Assembly (NCBI GenBank): GCA_028687755.1
Contig: JAQTZL010000004.1
Location: forward strand, 124,001 to 188,000
Length of the DNA stretch: 64,000 bases
Direction of reading: 5' to 3'
Source of the DNA: Candidatus Nanopelagicales bacterium
Lineage (GTDB): Bacteria > Actinomycetota > Actinomycetes > S36-B12
Under the pieces are notes generated by a model, which was not told where the DNA came from, made no database searches, and saw only the letters and a list, made by a program, of their open reading frames with translations. Shown piece by piece: positions 4,415-16,492 of the stretch; within the stretch, counting starts at the first letter, position 1; each line of letters opens with the position of its first letter. The position numbers and the translations under genes were made by a program.

Positions 4415-5064
4415 AAACCTCTCTGGCAGTCGAACCTTGGGAGAAACTTTTCGATCTCGCCGTAAGTCTTATTGATCAGGTGAGTCTTAATGCGAAGTTT
4501 GAGTGGTCATTCGGGGGCGGAACTGTATTGATGTTCAAACTGAACCATCGACGAAGCAAAGACATTGACATTTTCATTGCCGATCAACAACTTCTTGGCA
4601 TGTTTTCCCCACGATTACACGACTATGCGCAAGCTCTCACCTCCTCGTACTCAGAGGACGCGCAAGCGATAAAACTTCAATTCCCCATGGGCGAAATTGA
4701 TTTCATCGTCGCGGAACCACTTGTGCAAACTCCATTTGAAAAATCCGAAGTACGCGGCAGGCTTGTGCTGCTGGAGACTCCTGCTGAAATCATTGCTAAG
4801 AAGTTATGGCATAGAGGACACATCGCTACTGGCCGAGACTTGTTTGACCTCGCTGCAGTTGCAACCCACAATCCTGGGTTACTCGAAGATGCCAAAATTT
4901 CAATGCGGAAGAATGCAGACACGTTCTTACATCAATGTCGTGTACGTGAGCGAGTGATTCGAGCACAGTACGAAGCCATTGACACTCTCGATTTCCATTT
5001 GACTTATAACGAGAGCATGGAGATCGCCGATTCCGTTCTTACCCCACTAATTTCTAGTCAGTAG
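4411..5064 (+). CDS. AbiEii/AbiGii-type nucleotidyltransferase, putative toxin
   Basis: A 217-residue protein of the AbiEii/DUF1814 nucleotidyltransferase family. The catalytic pattern is visible as GGGT at residues 35-38 and the acidic pair D51-I-D53 (KDIDIF), with a third Asp in GEIDFIV. The family's later block is present as KKLWHRG and GRDLFDLA. Such enzymes act as toxins by transferring nucleotides to targets such as tRNA or to proteins, often as phage defence. The ATG at 4411 is favoured because it overlaps the HTH stop as ATGA; an in-frame ATG at 4396 also exists. The last 11 bp overlap the convergent GH88 gene. Pairing strongly supports a toxin-antitoxin module; activity is untested. 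Confidence 0.8.
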   Translation: MKTSLAVEPWEKLFDLAVSLIDQVSLNAKFEWSFGGGTVLMFKLNHRRSKDIDIFIADQQLLGMFSPRLHDYAQALTSSYSEDAQAIKLQFPMGEIDFIVAEPLVQTPFEKSEVRGRLVLLETPAEIIAKKLWHRGHIATGRDLFDLAAVATHNPGLLEDAKISMRKNADTFLHQCRVRERVIRAQYEAIDTLDFHLTYNESMEIADSVLTPLISSQ

Positions 5065-6535
5065 GGCTTGGCTTTGGCGTTGCTGAACTAGGTGGGGTAG
5101 CCGTTGAGGCCGGTGTTTGGGCAGGTATTTGAGTCGCCGTCGCGCTTGGTGTTGGAGTTGGCAGGCTCGTTGCAATCTGCGCGAGGGCCTGGAGCAGGTA
5201 GAAGTCGCCCCACACGTAACTGCCATCGCGAGCAAGGGCTGGAACATTCAAACTCTGCTGCAACAGGATGCCTGGGTTACGGGTGTTGGTGTTGAGCCAA
5301 CCAGGGGTAGCCAGCGTTCCTAAGGTCAGGCGCGCATACGTGTTGTAGGTCTTTGCCGCATCAGCACTTGGTTCATTTCGTGCAAGGGTGAGTAAGCCAC
5401 TTGCTGCGATTGCTGCAGCACTTGAATCACGTGGCGCTTTGTTGTTACTGACATCGAGATCCCATGCTGGAATGCAGCCGGGTGGCACGCGAGACATCCA
5501 GTAGTTCGCTGTTGCTTCCGCAGCTTTTAAGAATGCTGGATTCTTGGTGAGTTCATAGGCTTGCGCAAAACCATTGATCGCCCACGCCTGCCCGCGCGAC
5601 CACGTGCTTGAGGTTCCTTCAAGACCTTGACCTGCAATCGGCCCGATCAGCATGCCGTTCTTTGGATTGAATGCCATGCGATGAAACGTCGAACCATTAG
5701 GGCGAATGAAATTATTGGCCAGCGTGAGCATGTGTTGCTCACCTTCATTGGCAAGGTAATTACCTTCCGCACCGAGCCACTGGCCAACTTGAATCATCAT
5801 GGGGGCGTTCATTGCTGAATCGATAATCACGCCCCACTTGCCGTTGTAGTTCGCGGACTTAATTGCGTGCACCACATTGCTATAGCGGCGAGCAAGTGAT
5901 TTTGCTGCAGTGATTTCAGCATTTAGGTATTCGCGCTTGAGTGCACTCGTTGGTTCAAGTTCATGCGCAAGGCCCATCGGCAAACCGATCATGAATCCGA
6001 GATCGTGCGTGCCTTTGTCGTTAGCGACTTTGATCAGAGCCTTGCTGTATTGATTAGCCCGTTTAAGCCAGCGATCGTCTTTGGTCTGCTGATACATCAA
6101 CCACAACTCACCTGGATAAAAACCAGAAGTCCATGCTGATGGTCCGGTCTTTACGTAAGTGACTTGATTGGCGAGCGCACCAAAGGGGTAGCGCTTTTTA
6201 CTGCCCCTTGCCGCTGCGGCAAGTTTGGTTGAAGCGACTTGGTAGACCGCATCAGCTTGAGGCTTGGTGATTTCACTCGTGACTGCTGGGCAGACAACGC
6301 TGGTGCCTGTGGTTGGCGCTGAGGTTGCCACTGTTGGAGTGGCGGTTGCGCTCGCCGTTGCTATGGGTGTTGCCGTGGAACTTGGTGTTGCCGAACTAGT
6401 GGCCGTTGGTGTCGCAACTGGATCTGCGCCATCAGCCGCTTTGGCTGTCGCCGCAATGAATCCTGTTGTTGCAAGAGTGAAGGAAACAGCAGTGATGGCA
6501 GCAAGCTTGCGCTTATTGCGTTTCGTATTCCTCAT
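5054..6535 (-). CDS. Secreted GH88-type unsaturated glucuronyl hydrolase
   Basis: A 493-residue exported enzyme. Residues 1-33 form a signal peptide (basic start, then hydrophobic core, AKA site), followed by an Ala/Thr/Pro/Ser-rich linker to about residue 80 and a GH88 (alpha/alpha)6 domain. The two catalytic Asp residues are D178 (THDLGF) and D239 (IIDSAMN), 61 residues apart as in the Bacillus enzyme. WTSGFYPGELWL, RGQAWAINGF and APRDSSAAA are family blocks. A second Thr/Pro-rich tail of about 35 residues ends the protein. GH88 enzymes remove the unsaturated uronic acid left by polysaccharide lyases. The GTG at 6541 overlaps the stop of the upstream reductase by one base; the ATG at 6535 is the alternative used here. 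Confidence 0.85.
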   Translation of the reverse strand: MRNTKRNKRKLAAITAVSFTLATTGFIAATAKAADGADPVATPTATSSATPSSTATPIATASATATPTVATSAPTTGTSVVCPAVTSEITKPQADAVYQVASTKLAAAARGSKKRYPFGALANQVTYVKTGPSAWTSGFYPGELWLMYQQTKDDRWLKRANQYSKALIKVANDKGTHDLGFMIGLPMGLAHELEPTSALKREYLNAEITAAKSLARRYSNVVHAIKSANYNGKWGVIIDSAMNAPMMIQVGQWLGAEGNYLANEGEQHMLTLANNFIRPNGSTFHRMAFNPKNGMLIGPIAGQGLEGTSSTWSRGQAWAINGFAQAYELTKNPAFLKAAEATANYWMSRVPPGCIPAWDLDVSNNKAPRDSSAAAIAASGLLTLARNEPSADAAKTYNTYARLTLGTLATPGWLNTNTRNPGILLQQSLNVPALARDGSYVWGDFYLLQALAQIATSLPTPTPSATATQIPAQTPASTATPPSSATPKPSPTD

Positions 6536-6540
6536 GCTCA

Positions 6541-7530
6541 CTACTTGATCTCGCCATTCACTATGAGCACAACCTTGCCGGTGATTTCTCCGGCTTCAAT
6601 CATGCGATGAGCCTCACCTGCTTGTTGAATTGGCAATTCCAGGTCAATAGATGGCTGCACTAATCCGGCTTCGATCCATGGCCAGATCGTGCGCTCGACG
6701 GCACGACAAATCAGATCCTTTTCGCTCACCGGGCGACTACGAAGGGCCATTGCGTGAATCGTGCCGTTCTTTTGGAGCAGTGCTTGCAAGTTGATCTCAC
6801 CTTTGATGCCACCGAGCATGCCGATGATCGCGATGCGACCGTTGCGATTGAGAGCGTCAATATTCTTTTCGAGGTATTTGGCGCCGACCATGTCAAGAAT
6901 GACATCGACTCCACCGATTTCATTTTTGATTACCTCTACAAAATCTTGAGTGTTGTAGTTGATAAGTAATTCAGCACCGAGTGCAGCACAAGCGTCAAGC
7001 TTCTTTTGACTGCCTGCGGTTACTGCAATGCGCACACCAGCGGCTTTGGCTAGCTGAATGGCATGCGTGCCAATACCTGAGCCACCACCGTGAATGAGCA
7101 GCCATTCGCCTTGCTTCAAGTTCGCAGTCATGAAGACGTTGCTCCACACTGTGCACGCAACCTCGGGCAATGCTGCAGCTTCGATCAAGCTGAGATTTCC
7201 GGGAACTGGCATCACCTGTTCAACCGGAACCGCAACCTTTTCGGCATATCCGCCGCCAGCGAGCAGCGCACACACCCGATCGCCGATCTGAAAGCGGGTG
7301 ACGCCAACGCCAACTTCACTGATGAGCCCCGCGCACTCCAAGCCGATGATCTCGGTGGATCCAGCAGGCGGATTGTATTTTCCAATGCGCTGTAAGGTGT
7401 CAGCACGATTGACTGCTGTCGCGGCAATGGTGATGACGACTTCACCTGGTGCTGCTACTGGATCGGGAGCCTTGCTCCACACGAGAGTCTCGTAGCTACC
7501 AAAGCCATGTGGTTGAGTGATTGCGTGCAC
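6541..7530 (-). CDS. NAD(P)H:quinone oxidoreductase, PIG3-like MDR family
   Basis: A 329-residue zinc-free medium-chain reductase of the quinone-oxidoreductase/PIG3 type. The N-terminal GroES-like domain includes AVNRADTLQRIGKYNPP, characteristic of this group, and the Rossmann domain carries the nucleotide-binding GGGSGIGTHAIQLA. The structural and catalytic zinc cysteines of alcohol dehydrogenases are absent. It would reduce quinones or other electrophiles with NADPH in the cytoplasm. Its stop shares one base with the alternative GTG start of the GH88 gene, and it lies 7 nt after the TauE gene, so the three form a likely operon. The physiological substrate cannot be read from sequence. Confidence 0.85.
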   Translation of the reverse strand: MHAITQPHGFGSYETLVWSKAPDPVAAPGEVVITIAATAVNRADTLQRIGKYNPPAGSTEIIGLECAGLISEVGVGVTRFQIGDRVCALLAGGGYAEKVAVPVEQVMPVPGNLSLIEAAALPEVACTVWSNVFMTANLKQGEWLLIHGGGSGIGTHAIQLAKAAGVRIAVTAGSQKKLDACAALGAELLINYNTQDFVEVIKNEIGGVDVILDMVGAKYLEKNIDALNRNGRIAIIGMLGGIKGEINLQALLQKNGTIHAMALRSRPVSEKDLICRAVERTIWPWIEAGLVQPSIDLELPIQQAGEAHRMIEAGEITGKVVLIVNGEIK

Positions 7531-8468: not shown

Positions 8469-8493
8469 ACAATACCAAGTGAATTGGTATAGA
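8469..8493. promoter_or_regulatory. Divergent promoter with 19-bp inverted repeat
   Basis: ATACCAA at 8472-8478 and TTGGTAT at 8484-8490 form a perfect inverted repeat with a 5-nt centre. The left arm overlaps a minus-strand -10 element (TATTGT, 8474 down to 8469) for the TauE gene. The right arm overlaps an extended -10 (TGG then TATAGA at 8488-8493) facing the NuoF-like gene. One regulator could control both directions. Confidence 0.55.
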
Positions 8494-8592
8494 ATGAAAT
8501 CGGACCTGATACCTGCTCAGTGGGCCCGTCTTTTTACCCAGCCTTTGCCTGTTGCGGACGGGATCCACAAGTCAGATGGCCAGAATTCACCT

Positions 8593-9936
8593 ATGAGCAC
8601 GCCACCTGTCGGAAATGCCCGACTCCTGCCCGTTGGCCCCTCAGGGCAAGCACTGGATCTGCGCTCACTGGCAGCCCATGAGGCCCACTTTGGTCGACTT
8701 CCCTTGGTCCAAGGACCTCGCATTGGTAAGCCTGGGCCGTTGGTCCACGAAATAGAAACCTCAGGCTTACGAGGCCGTGGCGGTGGCTGGTTTCCCACGG
8801 CCCGAAAGATCCATGCGGTGGTGGAAAGCGCAGGAGCTCGCCGAGCTTGGTCATCTGGCCGCAAGCCTGTTGTCGTGGCCAACGCAATGGAAGGTGAACC
8901 CGCATCCAGCAAAGACGCAGTTCTCCTTCGGCATTGCCCTCATCTAGTTCTTGATGGCGTGAGTGCACTGGCGGCAACCATCGGTGCAACATCGGCATAT
9001 ATCGCTGTGCACCGCGGTTCCGCAGTTGTTGACGTCGTTTTGCGTGCACTTGCCGAACGCAATGATGCAGTGACCATCGAACTGGTTACCCCACCAGCTC
9101 GCTATGTCTCCAGCGAAGAAAGTGCACTCGCACACTGGATCGGTGAAGGCATGGGTACGCCTGTTTATGGAAAACGAACCTTTCAACGCGGAGTGAACGA
9201 TCGACCTACCGAAGTGCAGAACGCAGAAACGATGGCGCACATTGGCTTGATTGCACGATATGGCGGCCAATGGTTCGCATCTGTTGGCGAGACTTCTGCA
9301 CCTGGCACGTGCTTAGTTTCGGTGGGTGGAGCAGTGAACTCACCGGGAGTTATTGAAGTAACAGTTGGCACCCCAGTTGCTGAAATTATTAAGCGCTGCA
9401 ATGGTTTTTCCGCTGAAGTCTCCGGCTTCCTTACCGGTGGCTATGGCGGTGGTTGGGCTGGTTATGACGCACTGATGAACGCATCGTGGTCACCTGATTC
9501 TGTTGCGGCTGCGGGCGGCGTCATTGGTGCGGGCATTCTTTGGGCCTTTGATGCACATGACTGCCCTGTTACCGCAATGGCTCGTGTAGCTCGATGGATG
9601 GCTGGCGAAAGTGCTGGCCAATGCGGTCCATGTCGTTTCGGTTTGCCTTCCCTTGCTGATGATCTAGATGTACTTTCCGCGCGCTCAGCATCGTCTGCGG
9701 ATCTCCATCGGTTGACTTCACGGCTTCCACTGGTGCAACAGCGCGGTGGATGTAAGCACCCAGATGGAGTTGCGCGATTTATTACTTCGGGCTTGCAGGT
9801 CTTTCAAACAGAAGTTGCACATCACATTCACGGGCGATGCAGCGCTGATACCCATCACTCATCAGTGGTGACACCATTGCCGATTGTTGATCAACGAATC
9901 ACACCCGTGGGCTTCCCCGGAAAGGATTTCAAATGA
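8593..9936 (+). CDS. NuoF-like flavin/iron-sulfur NAD(P)H dehydrogenase subunit
   Basis: A 447-residue relative of the complex I 51-kDa subunit. GLRGRGGGWFPTARK is the FMN/NADH-binding loop, followed by the Rossmann-like part and the SLBB-type region (GTPVAEII near residue 275). The N3 Fe-S motif reads ESAGQCGPCRFG: the first of the usual Cys residues is Ala (A341), leaving C344, C347 and, 40 residues on, C387. It is therefore not a subunit of respiratory complex I; no other nuo gene is nearby. It overlaps the ferredoxin gene by 4 nt (ATGA). The start is uncertain: 8593 fits the homology, while 8494 and 8479 are in-frame starts that would lie before the predicted transcription start. Confidence 0.85.
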   Translation: MSTPPVGNARLLPVGPSGQALDLRSLAAHEAHFGRLPLVQGPRIGKPGPLVHEIETSGLRGRGGGWFPTARKIHAVVESAGARRAWSSGRKPVVVANAMEGEPASSKDAVLLRHCPHLVLDGVSALAATIGATSAYIAVHRGSAVVDVVLRALAERNDAVTIELVTPPARYVSSEESALAHWIGEGMGTPVYGKRTFQRGVNDRPTEVQNAETMAHIGLIARYGGQWFASVGETSAPGTCLVSVGGAVNSPGVIEVTVGTPVAEIIKRCNGFSAEVSGFLTGGYGGGWAGYDALMNASWSPDSVAAAGGVIGAGILWAFDAHDCPVTAMARVARWMAGESAGQCGPCRFGLPSLADDLDVLSARSASSADLHRLTSRLPLVQQRGGCKHPDGVARFITSGLQVFQTEVAHHIHGRCSADTHHSSVVTPLPIVDQRITPVGFPGKDFK

Positions 9937-10157
9937 GCGAACTTCATGAAATCCGCCTGGATCCAACGTTGTGCGATGCGCATGGGTTTTGCGTGGAGCT
10001 ACTTCCGGAACTGTTCACCCTCGATGAGTGGGGGTATCCGCTCCTGAACTCAGGCACCCTGACGACCGCGGTGCCCCATCAGCTCTTAGGGGCAGCCAAG
10101 AAAGCCGTTGTCGCCTGCCCCGTTGCCGCGTTACGACTCGAACGCCTACAACAGTAA
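9933..10157 (+). CDS. Small ferredoxin with Cys-x2-His-x2-Cys motif
   Basis: A 74-residue ferredoxin of the type often paired with cytochromes P450. Cluster ligands are C14, C20 and C62-P, with H17 at the position normally filled by the extra Cys of four-Cys ferredoxins (C-x2-H-x2-C-xn-C-P). Such proteins hold a [3Fe-4S] or a His-ligated [4Fe-4S] cluster. No P450 gene is present; overlap with the NuoF-like gene points to that flavoprotein as its reductase, so it would pass electrons on from NAD(P)H. Acidic residues dominate the surface, as expected for an electron shuttle. Family clear; electron acceptor inferred only. Confidence 0.88.
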   Translation: MSELHEIRLDPTLCDAHGFCVELLPELFTLDEWGYPLLNSGTLTTAVPHQLLGAAKKAVVACPVAALRLERLQQ

Positions 10158-10248: not shown

Positions 10249-10818
10249 ATGAGCACCAAGGTCTACGGTAAGCGATACACGAGCGCTGGGCAAAAGGCAT
10301 TGGCCTTTGGGATGGCTTCAGCAACTTGCTTGGGCGTTGTTGGGTTGATCGCGGTTCGCAATGCTCAGGAGGCCACCGCCGCTGAAGGAACAGAGCAGGT
10401 AGTTCTCGCTGCGGCCACGACATCCACGGGTGTCACTCAAGGGCAACTCGATCAATACGCCTCGCAATTAATTGCTGAGCAGCAACGTCTGGAGGCCTAC
10501 CGAGTGCAACTCATCGCCACGGCGAATGCTCTTGCAGCACAATCGCGTACCGGTGCCAGCGTTGCAGCGAAAATTTCGGTTCCGAAATCACCTACATCCA
10601 CAACAAAGAATTCGAACAGTTCATCAACTGCCAACAGTGCCGCTACCTCTGCTACTCAACAGGAATCTGCACCAGCTGCACAGACACCAGCTGCGCAGGC
10701 ACCGCCAGCTCGCAAGTTTGTGCCGGCCCCTGCTCAGCAGAGTGCATCGAATAACAATGGCGCAGCCAGCGCACCTGCACCAGCTGCACAAAGCACCACG
10801 AAAGCCAGTAAGGGCTAA
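10249..10818 (+). CDS. Membrane-anchored low-complexity protein upstream of apbE
   Basis: A 189-residue protein with one hydrophobic segment (about residues 18-35) after a basic N-terminus, a Gln/Leu-rich stretch that looks like a short coiled coil (about residues 62-100), and a long Ala/Ser/Thr/Pro/Gln-rich tail to the end. No domain is recognisable. A strong ribosome site (AGGGAGAAGG, 10237-10245) sets the start. In similar clusters this position is often held by an FMN-binding protein that ApbE flavinylates; here I see no clear D/S-G-A-T flavinylation motif, though Thr-rich runs such as NSAATSAT exist. It would face the outside of the membrane. Function unknown. Confidence 0.7.
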   Translation: MSTKVYGKRYTSAGQKALAFGMASATCLGVVGLIAVRNAQEATAAEGTEQVVLAAATTSTGVTQGQLDQYASQLIAEQQRLEAYRVQLIATANALAAQSRTGASVAAKISVPKSPTSTTKNSNSSSTANSAATSATQQESAPAAQTPAAQAPPARKFVPAPAQQSASNNNGAASAPAPAAQSTTKASKG

Positions 10819-10823
10819 TCGCC

Positions 10824-11819
10824 GTGAATGAAGTCAGAGAGTTTCGGGCAATGGGTGCCGCGTGCATGATTTCGGTCTACGCGCCTGCCCATGCAGAAAA
10901 ATTGACCGAGTTAGGTCGCATGCGTGTTGAAATCCTTGAACAATCATGGTCGCGTTTCCGCGAAAGCAGTGAACTCAATCGCGTGAATGCGTGCGCGGGC
11001 AGCGGACCAATGGTGGTGAGCGCGGACATGCTCACACTCGTGTGGCACATGAAGCACGCATGGGAAATTACTGGTGGCTTATTTGATCCAACAATGTTGA
11101 GTGAAATTAAAGCCGCTGGATACGACGCAGACTATGCGTCGGTCATCGCACGCGGAGCACTTGCCGGCATTGCTTCGTGGAATCAGGAAGCGGTTTCTGG
11201 TGCAGAAGGAACAAGTGCGATACCTACTACGCGCGTTAGTTTTATGAATGACGTGAACATTGATCTTAAAGCAAGCACCATTTCCTTGCCGGCAGGAGTT
11301 GGGCTAGATCCAGGTGCTATCGGCAAAGGCTTGGGCGCCGACATCGTGGCTCATGAGCTAATGGAAGCCGGTGCCAGTGGCGTGCTCGTTGATCTTGGTG
11401 GCGACATCGTGGTCGCGGGTAAACCTGGTGATGCTGACGCATGGGTGATTGCGATTGAGGATGAGCGAGATCCCAATAACGCAGCGCGTGAACCACAATT
11501 AGTGACATGTAATACCCGGAGTACGAATGACGAGCATGAAACATTTGGCATTGCCACGTCATCGACCCTGTATCGCCGTTGGGCTGGTGGTACACGCCAT
11601 CATGTGATTGATCCGCGCACCGGCCAGATGGCTGATCCTGATTTGATTCAAGCAACGGTGTGGTGCGGTGCGGGATGGTTAGCTGAAGTGACAGCTACAG
11701 CGGCAATGTTGATGAAGCCAGATGCTGCGTGCGCTTGGCTTACAACACATGACGCGGGGTACACCGTGATGACTCCCACGCAAATGTGGTCATCGCTAGA
11801 GAAGGTGCAACATGGGTGA
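10824..11819 (+). CDS. apbE: FAD:protein FMN transferase (ApbE family)
   Basis: A 331-residue ApbE-family protein. Family blocks are GLDPGAIGKGLGADIV (FAD site), LVDLGGDIVV, and the C-terminal HHVIDPRTGQMADPD. These enzymes use FAD to attach FMN covalently to Thr or Ser of partner proteins, usually outside the cytoplasmic membrane. No signal peptide or lipobox is visible with the GTG start at 10824, so either the location differs or the start is further upstream (none suitable seen). It follows the low-complexity protein by 5 nt and overlaps the ferric-reductase-like gene by 8 nt, so all three are one operon with the NuoF-like protein and ferredoxin likely included. Confidence 0.9.
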   Translation: MNEVREFRAMGAACMISVYAPAHAEKLTELGRMRVEILEQSWSRFRESSELNRVNACAGSGPMVVSADMLTLVWHMKHAWEITGGLFDPTMLSEIKAAGYDADYASVIARGALAGIASWNQEAVSGAEGTSAIPTTRVSFMNDVNIDLKASTISLPAGVGLDPGAIGKGLGADIVAHELMEAGASGVLVDLGGDIVVAGKPGDADAWVIAIEDERDPNNAAREPQLVTCNTRSTNDEHETFGIATSSTLYRRWAGGTRHHVIDPRTGQMADPDLIQATVWCGAGWLAEVTATAAMLMKPDAACAWLTTHDAGYTVMTPTQMWSSLEKVQHG

Positions 11820-12390
11820 AACTGCATGGACCTGGTTAGCGATTCGCGCATCTGGGATCACTGCTTGGGGTTTACTGACCGCCGTAGTGGTCTGGGGAAT
11901 CCTGTTGCGCACACGCATTCTGGGTCGGGCTGCTTCACCTACACGGCTACTTGACCTGCACCGCTGGCTTGGCGCGTTAGCTCTAAGTTTTCTCGCGATC
12001 CACATGGTTTTCTTGCTCTTTGACTCATATCTCACGTTCACGGTGGCGCAGATTTTGATTCCTGGGCTTTCATCGTGGAACACCTTTGCGGTGGCGCTGG
12101 GGGTTATCGCATTTTGGTTCATGATTCCGGTGTCAATCGTTGGACGGTTACGTCCTCGCTTGAAAAACTCAGGAGCAAAGCTCTTCCAGCAATCGCACTG
12201 GTTGGCCTATGCGGCTTGGCCAATCGCCACCATGCATTACATCCTGGCTGGTACCGATGCTCTCGCCTCGTGGTCACTCGCGCTACTGATTGCAGGTAGT
12301 GCACTGATTGTGTTGGGGCTGATGGCTCGCGGATTTATTCCATCACCTGGGCCCACGCGTGCTGCTGGTTCAGTGGTTGTTCGTTCGTAA
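11812..12390 (+). CDS. Ferric reductase-like transmembrane haem protein
   Basis: A 192-residue membrane protein of the ferric-reductase-like (cytochrome b561/FRD) type with about five to six hydrophobic helices. Four His residues sit at helix positions suited to bind two haems: LHRWLG, AIHMVF, QQSHWLAY and TMHYILAG. There is no FAD- or NAD-binding domain, so it must get electrons from a partner, most simply the ferredoxin or NuoF-like protein encoded upstream. The gene overlaps apbE by 8 nt and ends 7 nt before the convergent moeA-like gene. Such proteins move electrons across the membrane to an outside flavoprotein or metal; the acceptor here is unknown. Confidence 0.83.
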   Translation: MGETAWTWLAIRASGITAWGLLTAVVVWGILLRTRILGRAASPTRLLDLHRWLGALALSFLAIHMVFLLFDSYLTFTVAQILIPGLSSWNTFAVALGVIAFWFMIPVSIVGRLRPRLKNSGAKLFQQSHWLAYAAWPIATMHYILAGTDALASWSLALLIAGSALIVLGLMARGFIPSPGPTRAAGSVVVRS

Positions 12391-12397
12391 TGCGCAG

Positions 12398-13603
12398 TTA
12401 GAGCGAAATAATTGGAACGGATGTGCCGGCGTTCATCACGTCAGGCGCGATAAATGCGATCCCATCTGCATTCGCCCAGTCACTGATGTCGTTTAATGAT
12501 CCAGATAGTTTTTTGGCAATGAGGTTTGATCCCGATCTACTCAGCGTGACGGGAACCAATCTGGTGTCATCTTGATAATCGCCAATTGGTGGTTCATCAA
12601 CAAGCACTGCGTGGGAGAGCACGGGTGCAGGTGCACCACGCATACCCCGAATGAGGGGCGCAACAATCGTGAGCAAGCCAGCTAATGCTGATGCAGGTTC
12701 ACCTGGTAGCCCCACAACAAAGCGACCATCAGGAAGTTTCGCTAACAACATTTGGGTACCGGGGGTGGAGGCAACGCCATCAATGAGCCAACGCGCACCA
12801 AGATCACTCATGACTTGACGCACATGATTGTCAGGTGTGGGAGCGGTGGAGCCAGTAGTGATCAAGATGTCAACGTTGGCGTCATCGATATGTTCAAGGA
12901 GGAGCTGCGCGGTATCGGGTGCGCGCAGTGGTGGATTGGAACGAGCACCTTGGGACCCCGCAAAATGCGCAACCGCATCGCCGAGGGCATCGCGAATGCG
13001 CCCATCGCGTGGCAGTCCTTGACTGAGCAACGTATGGCCGAGCACAACCGTGCCAACGACAGGCGGGCGGACGATCTCTACAAAATCGTGCCCACTTGAA
13101 GCAGCAAGTGCTAGCACTGCCGCAGTTACTTGGCGTCCTGCCGGCACAAGTTCACTGCCAAGTGTTGCTCTGGAAGCCTGGCGGGCGATGCCACTGCCAA
13201 GTTCTGGTCGCACAGACTCATCAATGACACCGGTGAGGGCATCGAGTGCGATCACAATGATTGAATCGTCATTGGCTTTGCGTGCTTCAACAGCAGCGAC
13301 AGAAATAACCGCATCCGTGTGATCAGGAATAGGTTGCCCGGCATGCAAAAACATGCATTCCCCGGGTTGAAGGCGAGTATCAGCTACCGCAAGCCACGGA
13401 CCTTCACCACAAATTGCATACCCGTCACTTTGGGCGCTGTCTGCTGCGGGCTCGTCGGTTAATCTCAGTAAGGGTTTGCCGAGAATACTTCCGCCTGCTT
13501 CATCAAGTCGGGCGGCAACAGTGGGAAGGGCCCTGCCAGAAGTGGTGGCAACATGAAAGGCCTGTTCCCAAGCAAGCACACCATCAAGCCCGTAAGTACT
13601 CAT
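12398..13603 (-). CDS. MoeA-like molybdopterin molybdotransferase
   Basis: A 401-residue MoeA-family protein, which inserts molybdate into molybdopterin. Blocks seen are the N-terminal SDGYAI, the GECMFLHAGQPIP loop, ITTGSTAPTPDNHV at the position of the usual TGG(V/T)S motif, and GLPGEPASALAGL in place of the standard PGNPVSA. These two departures from consensus (Ser for Gly, Glu for Asn) raise the chance of altered activity. No other molybdenum-cofactor gene and no molybdoenzyme is in the window. It lies convergent to the ferric-reductase-like gene and separated by about 68 nt from the acidic PepSY-like gene. Family sure, full activity less so. Confidence 0.82.
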   Translation of the reverse strand: MSTYGLDGVLAWEQAFHVATTSGRALPTVAARLDEAGGSILGKPLLRLTDEPAADSAQSDGYAICGEGPWLAVADTRLQPGECMFLHAGQPIPDHTDAVISVAAVEARKANDDSIIVIALDALTGVIDESVRPELGSGIARQASRATLGSELVPAGRQVTAAVLALAASSGHDFVEIVRPPVVGTVVLGHTLLSQGLPRDGRIRDALGDAVAHFAGSQGARSNPPLRAPDTAQLLLEHIDDANVDILITTGSTAPTPDNHVRQVMSDLGARWLIDGVASTPGTQMLLAKLPDGRFVVGLPGEPASALAGLLTIVAPLIRGMRGAPAPVLSHAVLVDEPPIGDYQDDTRLVPVTLSRSGSNLIAKKLSGSLNDISDWANADGIAFIAPDVMNAGTSVPIISL

Positions 13604-13671: not shown

Positions 13672-14346
13672 TTAGTCGTCGTCATCATCATGGGAAGAGC
13701 TCGGACGCTTCGTGTCTTCTGACTTATGTTCAGACTCGTCATCATCATCATCGTCGTCATCATCTTTTTTCGTCGTGGTAACCGTCGCCGCTGGCGCTTT
13801 TGCGGGAGCCGCCGGCTGGGCAGCTGGTGCACCCACAGCATCCCAATCAAAAATCACACCAGTTGCCTTATGGACGTAGCCGGTGGCAGTGCCACCGTCG
13901 GTCAAGGCAACTTTCACTGCGAAGGCCTCGAAGCCATTGCGTGTTACTTCTGAAATGGACGTTACCGTGCCTTTGACTTCGCTGAGCACTGCAGTGCGTG
14001 CCTGCAAGCTGGTGATTTGAGTAGGTGAAGGAGTGGTGACAGGTGTTGGTGTGGCGGCGACAGGCGAAGTCTTGGAAATTTTTACGGATGGAATCGTGGC
14101 CGCGATTTGCGCACTTGTTTGATCTGGTGTGCGAGCAACACTTTGTTCAAAGGTCACAATCGGCGGCAATTCACCAGGCACAAACATTGGAGCGCCTGCA
14201 GTAGCTGTCTCATTGGCTAACAAGGTGATGGTCTCGGGCGCAGGGGTGGGGCTTGCGGAGTTGACCACCGCGAAACCAGCAACACCGGCTACAGCCACCA
14301 TGCCTAAAGACATTGCTGTCACAGCGACGGTTTTGATTACGGACAT
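13672..14346 (-). CDS. Membrane-anchored PepSY-like protein with poly-Asp tail
   Basis: A 224-residue envelope protein. One N-terminal membrane segment is followed by a Pro/Thr/Ala spacer, then a single PepSY-like unit at about residues 126-180 (pattern A-x-G-x-V-x-S-I ... F-x-V-x-V ... D-G-G-T ... V-x-x-A-T-G) and an Ala/Pro linker. It ends in two acidic tracts: nine consecutive Asp near residue 200 and five at the very C-terminus, encoded by GAT/GAC trinucleotide runs. The tail could bind divalent cations or Fe. It is divergent from an OmpR-type two-component system, the usual arrangement for PepSY sensor accessories. GAGGAG precedes the ATG at 14346, which I prefer to the GTG at 14352. Confidence 0.75.
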   Translation of the reverse strand: MSVIKTVAVTAMSLGMVAVAGVAGFAVVNSASPTPAPETITLLANETATAGAPMFVPGELPPIVTFEQSVARTPDQTSAQIAATIPSVKISKTSPVAATPTPVTTPSPTQITSLQARTAVLSEVKGTVTSISEVTRNGFEAFAVKVALTDGGTATGYVHKATGVIFDWDAVGAPAAQPAAPAKAPAATVTTTKKDDDDDDDDDESEHKSEDTKRPSSSHDDDDD

Positions 14347-14489
14347 GTGCACTCCTCTGGTTTCCCTCTGCGATCACGGTAGGTCAGTGGGCCCTAACTC
14401 AATCCCCAGAATTGGTTAAGTCCAGGTAAGGGATTCGCGTGTGGCTGTGTGCGGTGGGATCCCAATGAGTTTCATGCCACGATGGCGTC

Positions 14490-15152
14490 GTGCGCGTTCT
14501 CGTTGTTGAAGATGACCCGGCTGTGGCCCAGCCATTAATTGAGGGTCTCATTCGCAATGGGTTCGAAGTTGAGCACGTCGGGTATGCAGCGCATGTACTC
14601 CCAGCAATCACGACCATGGCTGGCATCGATGTTGTGCTCTTGGATCTGGGGCTTCCTGATGGCGATGGACTCGATGTATTGCGCGAAATTCGCCGCACGA
14701 GTGACGTCCCGGTGATTATTGCGACAGCTCGAGGAGATGAGACCGATCGCATTGTTGGCCTGGAACTGGGTTCAGATGATTATGTGGTCAAGCCGTTTAG
14801 TGTTCGTGAGTTAGCGGCCCGTATTCGCGCCGTTGCTCGCCGGCGTCGCATTGAACCGACATCTCAGGGTGGTCGAGTCGTGGTGAACCGCTCGCATCGA
14901 ACGGTCATGGTTGATGGAGTTGAAGTTGACTTGACCACGAAAGAGTTTGACTTACTTGCAGTGCTTGCCGAAGAACCAGGCCGCGCAGTTCCTCGACAAG
15001 AACTGTTCTCACGCGTGTGGGATCCGGTGTGGGTGGGTACTGGAAAAACCCTTGATGTGCACATTGCTTCTCTACGAAAAAAATTGCACGATCCTGATTT
15101 GGTCGAGACCGTGCGCGGTGTCGGATATCGACTCGCGGATCACTCAGCGTGA
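14490..15152 (+). CDS. OmpR/PhoB-family response regulator
   Basis: A 220-residue regulator: receiver domain with the acidic pocket E7-D8-D9, phosphoacceptor D52 (LLDLGLPDGDG) and K near 103, then a winged-helix DNA-binding domain ending GVGYRLADHSA. The start is GTG at 14490; a possible -10 ending in GAT lies about 7 nt upstream, so the message may be leaderless. The stop overlaps the histidine kinase start (GTGA). It is divergent from the PepSY-like gene across a 143-bp gap, in which GGTTAAG and GGTAAGG lie 11 bp apart (14414 and 14425) and could be its binding site. Likely targets are the PepSY gene and perhaps the redox genes nearby. Confidence 0.9.
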   Translation: MRVLVVEDDPAVAQPLIEGLIRNGFEVEHVGYAAHVLPAITTMAGIDVVLLDLGLPDGDGLDVLREIRRTSDVPVIIATARGDETDRIVGLELGSDDYVVKPFSVRELAARIRAVARRRRIEPTSQGGRVVVNRSHRTVMVDGVEVDLTTKEFDLLAVLAEEPGRAVPRQELFSRVWDPVWVGTGKTLDVHIASLRKKLHDPDLVETVRGVGYRLADHSA

Positions 15153-16492
15153 CGCGGCGCTTAGTACTTGTCATGACCCTGCTCGCTGCAGGCGTCGCTG
15201 TGGCATTAGCCGTGCCCTTGGGTTTCGTCATTTCTAATGACCGGCATGCATCGTTTATGAATGAATTGCAACGGGAAACTCTTGCAACATCAATCGCTCT
15301 ATCGGCCCAACCGGTGAAAACCTGGCCAGCAACTGTGAAAGCAGTTTCCAAGGCCACGGGTGCTCGAGTCGTGATCGTGAACAGCAAATACTCACTCGTT
15401 GCGGACAGTCAAGAAAGTGCAGTTGACCGAGTCTTTGAACGTCCAGAAATTGCCACAGCATTAGCTGGAGTTTTGGCTTCAGGTGATCGACCGTCTGACA
15501 CCTTGGGCACTGACTTGCATTATGTGTCCGCTCCGGTGATCAAGAACGAAAAAGCTGTTGCGGCAGTGAGGCTTTCACTTGTCGACTCAGATGTGGTTGC
15601 CGTGGTGCGCCAAGTACAAATCGTGCTGGCAATATTTGTGTTGGTTGTGATGGCATTTGCAGCGCTCATCGCGTGGCTGATTGCTCGTTCAATTGCTGCG
15701 CCACTTTCACGCGTTGCAACGATTGCTGAGCAATTGCCTGACGATCTTTCCTTGCGAGCGCAGGAGCATCAGGGGCCCGCGGAGGTTCAAGCGGTTGCCA
15801 TTGCACTGAACACCACTGCTCAACGTCTCACTGGAATCTTGGAACGCACGCAGGCGGTTGCTGCGGATGCCTCGCATCACTTAAAAACTCCGTTAACGGG
15901 AGTGCGGTTGCGCCTTGAAGCGATCGAGGATATTTCTGAGCAAGAAGACGTGCGAGTTGAAGCACAAAAAGCCACTGCAGAAGTTGATCGGCTCACTCGG
16001 CGTATCGATCAGGTCCTCGCGCTTGCGCGAAGCGATGCCGGGGATACGTTGCGTGGGCGTTGTGATGCATCAGGTGTGATTGCTGAACGCATTGATCAGG
16101 CTTCGGTGACTGCCCAAGAATGTGATCTGCAGTTGGTTCAAGATCTTGCACCGCACATCATTGCGGCAGTGACCGCGCCGCCACTTGCTCGAGTGATCGA
16201 CGAACTCTTAGGTAATGCTTTCGAATATGCCCGTACACAGGTACGGATAACTTTGGTGGAGCGAGACGGTTTCGCGGTGCTGACTGTCGAAGATGACGGC
16301 CTGGGTTTACCGACCATTGAACAAGAAGTGGTCTTCAACAGATTTGTTCGCGGCGCAACTGCTGTTGCTGGTGGGTCTGGACTTGGGCTTGCGCTTGTGC
16401 GCGAAACGGCTCGTGCTTGTGGCGGCGATGCAGTTACGTTCACTTCGGCTTTAGGTGGCTTGGCAGTGCGCACCACTTGGCCATTGGCCTAA
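15149..16492 (+). CDS. Sensor histidine kinase
   Basis: A 447-residue membrane kinase: membrane segment at about residues 5-29, an extracytoplasmic sensor of about 125 residues, a second membrane segment at about 156-180, HAMP, HisKA, then an HATPase_c domain (NELLGNAFEYA-like N box, EDDGLGLP, GSGLGLALVRETA). The phospho-accepting His is H243; the usual Glu after it is a second His (ASHHLKTPL), an uncommon substitution that may alter phosphatase activity. The GTG start overlaps the response-regulator stop by 4 nt, so the pair is translated together. The small outside domain has no recognised ligand motif. Partner and envelope location are clear; signal unknown. Confidence 0.9.
   Translation: MTRRLVLVMTLLAAGVAVALAVPLGFVISNDRHASFMNELQRETLATSIALSAQPVKTWPATVKAVSKATGARVVIVNSKYSLVADSQESAVDRVFERPEIATALAGVLASGDRPSDTLGTDLHYVSAPVIKNEKAVAAVRLSLVDSDVVAVVRQVQIVLAIFVLVVMAFAALIAWLIARSIAAPLSRVATIAEQLPDDLSLRAQEHQGPAEVQAVAIALNTTAQRLTGILERTQAVAADASHHLKTPLTGVRLRLEAIEDISEQEDVRVEAQKATAEVDRLTRRIDQVLALARSDAGDTLRGRCDASGVIAERIDQASVTAQECDLQLVQDLAPHIIAAVTAPPLARVIDELLGNAFEYARTQVRITLVERDGFAVLTVEDDGLGLPTIEQEVVFNRFVRGATAVAGGSGLGLALVRETARACGGDAVTFTSALGGLAVRTTWPLA

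Follow-up and report, generated by a model that had tools for sequence, protein, structure and literature searches.

The flavin transferase ApbE moves FMN from FAD onto the last Ser or Thr of a D-x-x-[ST]-G-A-[ST] motif, and the account of this reaction given in PMC12052999 describes the seven-residue motif as sufficient, Ser as an accepted residue, the D-to-A change as minor in effect and the G-to-A change as halving flavinylation in a studied case, with flavin tags working best at a terminus. In the FMN_red substrates of PMC11334425, the site lies in an extension at the C-terminus, unstructured and adjoining the flavin-binding domain. The systems most like the locus analysed here are the MsrQ-like flavinylation systems of Meheust et al. 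2021 (PMC8238504), which share with it an apbE gene beside a PF01794 cytochrome gene in Actinobacteria. As reported there, 31 MsrQ-like clusters include a NuoF-like NADH subunit, and about 4% of the genomes in the flavinylation set hold apbE without a recognised substrate.

The locus lies in a 64,000-nucleotide stretch of a Candidatus Nanopelagicales genome (contig JAQTZL010000004.1, assembly GCA_028687755.1), which we refer to as the window. The genes of the cluster and its surroundings, and two motifs within one of them, are as follows:

8479..9936, plus strand: NuoF-like protein with Complex1_51K, SLBB and NADH_4Fe-4S domains (Pfam)
9933..10157, plus strand: 74-residue single-cluster ferredoxin (Fer4_15; Pfam, 50.1 bits)
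10249..10818, plus strand: 189-residue membrane-anchored, low-complexity protein, called the arm protein below (translation, topology prediction, AlphaFold2)
10540..10560, plus strand: QSRTGAS, an internal near-canonical ApbE motif in the arm protein (residues 98-104)
10789..10809, plus strand: QSTTKAS, the conserved C-terminal tag of the arm protein (residues 181-187), with Ser187 as the proposed FMN acceptor
10824..11819, plus strand: ApbE FMN transferase (PF02424, E 2.3e-46, 158.9 bits)
11812..12390, plus strand: MsrQ/ferric-reductase-like membrane cytochrome (PF01794, 31.6 bits against a cut-off of 28)
12398-13603, minus strand: MoeA-like gene (Pfam)
13672..14352, minus strand: single-pass PepSY-like protein with an acidic tail (structure model, fold comparison)
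14490..15152, plus strand: response regulator (Pfam), conserved beside the cluster
15149..16492, plus strand: sensor histidine kinase (Pfam), with homologues beside the cluster

With a PF01794 protein encoded in its apbE cluster, the locus resembles the MsrQ-like systems, and the Pfam search finds no FMN_bind protein within the cluster. An earlier note on this DNA had read the stretch 10249-12390 as an ApbE and a membrane haem protein next to a low-complexity protein, and the reading stands: the apbE and cytochrome genes, which overlap, give the Pfam matches listed above, the only four His residues of the cytochrome (50, 64, 129 and 142) are invariant in 20/20 aligned homologues, and the 189-residue product has no Pfam match above cut-off. 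The NuoF-like protein, whose gene is present in the loci of 6 of 19 relatives, is likely to be the NADH-oxidising electron donor, and the response regulator probably regulates the locus. The MoeA-like gene adjoins the cluster in 15 of the 19 relatives' loci, and its C-terminal MoeA domain falls below the cut-off (16.6 against 22.1 bits). Elsewhere in the window, a large protein on the minus strand (5054-6541) carries Pro/Thr/Ser/Ala-rich stretches at both ends, and four of the window's five tRNA genes are tRNA-Ser genes, located between 22914 and 47208, with the anticodons tga, gct, cga and gga.

Comparison of sequences makes it likely, in our view, that the neighbouring ApbE takes the arm protein as its substrate: a membrane-anchored, disordered arm that would carry FMN on a C-terminal tag and relay electrons from the cytochrome outward. 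The protein has a basic N-terminus, one transmembrane segment (about residues 18-36), a helix (64-103) and a disordered Pro/Ala/Ser tail, and its AlphaFold2 model (mean pLDDT 60.2) places helices at 13-46 and 64-103 and leaves the tail unstructured. Aligned arm proteins repeat this plan, from a basic N-terminus through a hydrophobic helix, a second helix and a fast-changing Pro/Ala/Ser/Lys linker to a conserved end, and charge-based prediction puts the N-terminus inside in 27/27. The Pfam search returns no FMN_bind (PF04205) match in the arm protein, and no folded flavin pocket is seen in its AlphaFold2 model.

The earlier note had found no obvious acceptor motif in the arm protein or the PepSY-like protein. 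This is correct for the strict form D-x-x-[ST]-G-A-T, which is absent from the arm protein, the ApbE, the cytochrome and the PepSY-like protein, but it overlooks two related motifs in the arm protein itself. The C-terminal one, in a protein that ends QSTTKASKG, departs from D-x-x-[ST]-G-A-[ST] at D and G, and the full consensus is accordingly absent from this conserved site. The internal one, QSRTGAS, misses the consensus only at Asp, and it might be argued that it is the acceptor site, with the tail incidental or with both sites in use. We give this very little weight, and rejected QSRTGAS as a general acceptor site because it is not conserved across relatives: in the three nearest it becomes QSRTGAR, QSRSGAT and QSSTAAN, so that the final Ser is already Arg in the nearest one, and in the next it is absent, whereas the tail persists further out.

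The conserved arm C-terminus that we propose as the acceptor reads Q-x-x-[TS]-[KQR]-[GSA]-S and is in register with the ApbE motif D-x-x-[ST]-G-A-[ST]. We scored 47 arm proteins, all less than 90% identical over their last 60 residues, made up of the window protein, 30 more encoded upstream of apbE, 10 distant proteins of this slot and six paralogues encoded downstream of the cytochrome gene; L175_4385, read in the wrong frame, and L182, which has no stop, were left out, and the distant loci L199 and L206 and likewise L187 are unscored, their slot proteins not being cleanly readable. The pattern [ST]x[GAST]S followed by zero to three residues closes 42 of the 47, against 1.88 expected when the last 70 residues are shuffled, a count that is not a probability because the sequences share ancestry. 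The remaining five, all distant, have Pro at -1 (T-x-P-S), and with Pro allowed the pattern covers 47/47. Positions outside the search pattern are conserved as well (Q at -6 in 31/47, [SAT] at -5 in 45/47), and past the second helix no residue other than Ser187 is invariant when 27 sequences are put through a plain MAFFT alignment. The short tag motif occurs in 17/17 small proteins versus 5/136 other ORFs of the same loci, and with D or Q added at -6 in 12/17 versus 0/136; in the window it is matched by one of 69 ORFs, that of the arm protein.

At the position of the motif Gly, nearly all Nanopelagicales arms have Lys, Arg or Gln. In the window the last codons of the arm gene hold AAGGG directly before apbE, and the need for a Shine-Dalgarno sequence could have forced Ser-Lys-Gly. 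Such an artefact was rejected as the source of the tag on the evidence of downstream paralogues and codon usage. Six loci (L163, L165, L170, L172, L175 and L177) encode a second arm with the same tag after the cytochrome and PepSY genes, where apbE does not follow it, and these paralogues end in QSQSKGS, QTQSKGS, QSNTKTS, QTTTKGS, QSNTKTS and QTTTKTS; the final tag Ser is encoded by AGY in 39/47 arms and by TCN in 8/47. Since paralogues with no apbE after them keep the tag and both types of Ser codon are used, the constraint acts on the protein.

More distant clusters hold canonical versions in the same position. Twenty stretches around other ApbE loci from genomes of the same order, some of the same family, gave 19 readable proteins just upstream of apbE (L315, which lacks its upstream part, was dropped), and [ST]G[AG]S plus at most four residues closes eight of them, against 0.46 expected. 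Two of these, L317 (PADTSTGASG) and L318 (VVDATTGAS), carry the full D-x-x-[ST]-G-A-[ST] consensus at the C-terminus, their presumed kinship to the window protein being based on slot and architecture. L316 has a near-canonical end (AQGSTGASGA), and further [ST]G[AG]S ends are found in L314 (SNTSTGASGAKP), L312 (TTTGGS), L310 (ASGGS), L319 (KSGGS) and L303 (DSNSGGS). The strict tag matches 13 of the 19, against 3.42 expected, with a null above 0.5 for L302 and L309 owing to the high Ser content of their tails. In L300 and L306 the residue at -1 is Gln, and three slot proteins, all of one genus (L305, L307 and L308), have no tag and end in YVLTKI, YVLTQV or YVLTQI. The genomes of L317 (G019) and L318 (G030) are both without FMN_bind, and L318 is also accompanied by ApbE, a NuoF-like protein and a ferredoxin; its 260-residue putative membrane protein has no Pfam match. 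Near a second orphan-type ApbE of another genome (G001, contig C6, L079), two convergent genes encode apparently secreted proteins ending in TSGS and SGGS, a suggestive, unquantified parallel to the tagged arms.

The acceptor might instead be a standard FMN_bind protein from another contig, with the arm in some other role, and the earlier note had allowed for an acceptor encoded elsewhere and called for a whole-genome FMN_bind search. That search finds one Pfam FMN_bind protein in the window's own genome, on contig C1, which contains FDNISGAT and whose gene has that of a ferric-reductase/NAD-type protein (named by eye) on one side and that of a second ApbE on the other. We compared 20 genomes, namely this one and 19 relatives carrying the window-type apbE-cytochrome pair. 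FMN_bind has no match in 14 of the 20, among them genomes that are 95-99% complete (G002, G009, G010, G015, G021, G022, G028 and G033), and each of the 14 has exactly one ApbE (Pfam ApbE search, 19 relatives), that of the window type. The other six have a separate ApbE beside the FMN_bind gene (G001 C196, G012 C24, G013 C66, G016 C25, G025 C27 and, in the window's genome, G000 C1). One counter-case also comes from G001, where no ApbE is listed near a further FMN_bind gene (C191) and where C6 carries the extra ApbE. With FMN_bind lacking in 14 of 20 genomes and paired with its own ApbE in the others, the ApbE of the window counts as an orphan as PMC8238504 uses the term.

A second set of 28 genomes, reached via named loci and with completeness not given, has FMN_bind in 14. 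Among the 20 genomes whose locus holds a strict-motif arm (19 of these arms are among the 47 scored, the twentieth, at L182, being cut by a contig end), 13 lack it, as does the genome of L187, where no arm is readable, and it is present in 7/7 genomes of a distant Acidimicrobiia-like group (L196, L199-L203 and L206). At 52 related loci, with flanks of up to 6 kb, a home-made HMM built from nine sequences finds no FMN_bind match. An acceptor of this type elsewhere in the genome is disfavoured by the pairing of FMN_bind with a dedicated neighbouring ApbE in the window's genome and five relatives, and we regard it as having only a slim chance of being right.

The remaining possibility of this sort, and the least probable reading that we considered, is an acceptor with a canonical motif that is not linked to the cluster. 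It draws on two proteins of the window's own genome, from a set of paralogues almost restricted to the genus, that overlap DUF2889 matches and carry the perfect ApbE consensus (DDLSGAT and DDISGAT; L084 on C2 and L093 on C6), and on relatives' cytochrome b genes that adjoin an MsrP-like gene (named by eye) and carry RTGATFVHDW (L257, L241 and L258-L269; over 12 loci, nine have RTGAT, one has RAGAS and two have no match). We rejected both as acceptors, since DUF2889 occurs only in the genus and in one genome besides (10/59), and 9 of the 20 cluster genomes, the window's own included, lack the cytochrome b. DUF2271 was rejected likewise (0/15). Scans of DNA for the canonical motif show no excess, with 17 matches versus 34 for the reversed pattern in the window's genome and 34 versus 51 in G022, G009 and G028 together (30 of those 34 inspected). 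Within the cluster, no protein family of the aligned loci has a conserved [ST]GA[ST], and for this reason the cytochrome, the PepSY-like and MoeA-like proteins, the regulators, TauE and the NuoF-like protein were also rejected.

Returning to the arm protein, the earlier note had offered a divergent site in its Ala/Ser/Thr-rich tail as one option, and the comparative evidence (the conserved tag, its canonical distant versions and the genomes without FMN_bind) strongly supports such a site as the probable acceptor. The transferase itself has conserved S246 and H260, with Glu288 at the Asp position in 45/46 sequences (matched by eye to the catalytic residues that a review gives as Vc Ser241, His257 and Asp285), whereas the FMN_bind-linked ApbEs inspected show Asp there. 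We dropped the idea that Glu288 is a co-adaptation to the Lys-containing motif: clusters with canonical tags also have Glu, so the residue gives no account of the motif change. No signal peptide or hydrophobic N-terminus is predicted in the window ApbE, and it looks cytosolic. The arm tag is predicted to lie outside the membrane, and the two locations together would need modification before export or an unusual location; the FMN_bind/ApbE pair of the same genome shows the same mismatch.

This topology, the Gly-to-Lys change in the motif, the lack of a flavin pocket in the arm model and the FAD hydrolysis described for some ApbE-like proteins in PMC4767422 would all fit a C-terminal motif that receives no flavin and instead serves in docking or assembly, with the cytochrome, the PepSY protein or ApbE as partner; ApbE would then be an FAD pyrophosphatase or act on another protein. 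We hold this to be unlikely, although less so than the alternatives above, since the tag matches the ApbE motif register at -6, -3, -1 and 0 and the same slot holds fully canonical versions.

If the tag is indeed the acceptor, ApbE would move FMN from FAD onto Ser187, its last residue, and the arm would be a single-pass protein with its N-terminus inside, in which a helix leads into a long, disordered Pro/Ala/Ser linker that has QSTTKAS at its end as a natural flavin tag. Electrons would then pass from NADH through the NuoF-like protein and the ferredoxin to the haems of the MsrQ-like cytochrome, and from there to the FMN at the tip of the flexible arm, which would hand them on beyond the membrane to an acceptor that might be a metal held by the acidic PepSY protein. 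The homologue of that protein adjoins the arm gene in many relatives, in the same operon. The window protein has no Pfam match and scores 14.9 bits against NCBIfam PepSY_MTB (cut-off 60), and its model has one confident domain (115-173), whose structural neighbours include YpmB and further PepSY folds (best E 5.5e-3), with UipA at rank 7 (E 0.45). UipA of Microbacterium is described in PMC8963506 as a metal-binding PepSY protein that adjoins the two-component system UipRS; the window protein is likewise a single-pass PepSY-like protein beside a two-component system and its model has a PepSY fold, but UipA has tandem PepSY domains, the window protein has one, and the structural match is weak. 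Because the metal-binding UipA also adjoins a two-component system, it is a reasonable but weak guess, by analogy, that the locus reduces surface metal or iron.

Beyond this locus, we lean towards a broader proposal, also drawn from comparison of sequences, that Actinobacteria use natural C-terminal flavin tags on disordered, membrane-tethered arms, where a dedicated ApbE subfamily that tolerates Lys, Arg or Gln at the motif Gly attaches FMN to a Ser that is the last residue or one of the last few. Such arms would replace the folded FMN_bind domain between cytochrome and extracytosolic acceptor and would explain some of the remaining genomes with an orphan apbE, predicting for them a class of substrate that profile searches miss because it has no domain and its site is a few terminal residues. 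Searches of open-licence PMC papers turned up no description of a C-terminal flavin-tag arm of this kind. The proposal would make the arm a new kind of ApbE substrate and widen the recognised motif, and it would mean a different way of moving electrons across the cell envelope, since in the ApbE substrates surveyed the FMN sits on a folded domain or next to one.

Set against the described systems, the locus compares as follows. The MsrQ-like systems of PMC8238504 typically, though not obligatorily, encode an FMN_bind protein, whereas the window cluster encodes a disordered, tagged arm, and they also differ from it in that the window ApbE has no signal peptide. With the known substrates FMN_bind, DUF2271, DUF3570, Flavodoxin_4 and FMN_red, as described in PMC8238504 and PMC11334425, the arm shares an [ST]GA[ST]-like site and a gene beside apbE; it differs in having no detected folded or flavin-binding domain, in a tag that ends zero to three residues before the C-terminus and in the replacement of Gly by Lys, Arg or Gln in most arms. 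It may be likened to an FMN_red-type tag on a flexible linker, minus the flavin-binding domain. The engineered flavin tag (Tong et al. 2021, as given in PMC12052999) is likewise a seven-residue ApbE motif that works best at the N- or C-terminus, but it is an artificial label, whereas the arm would carry a natural, conserved terminal tag.
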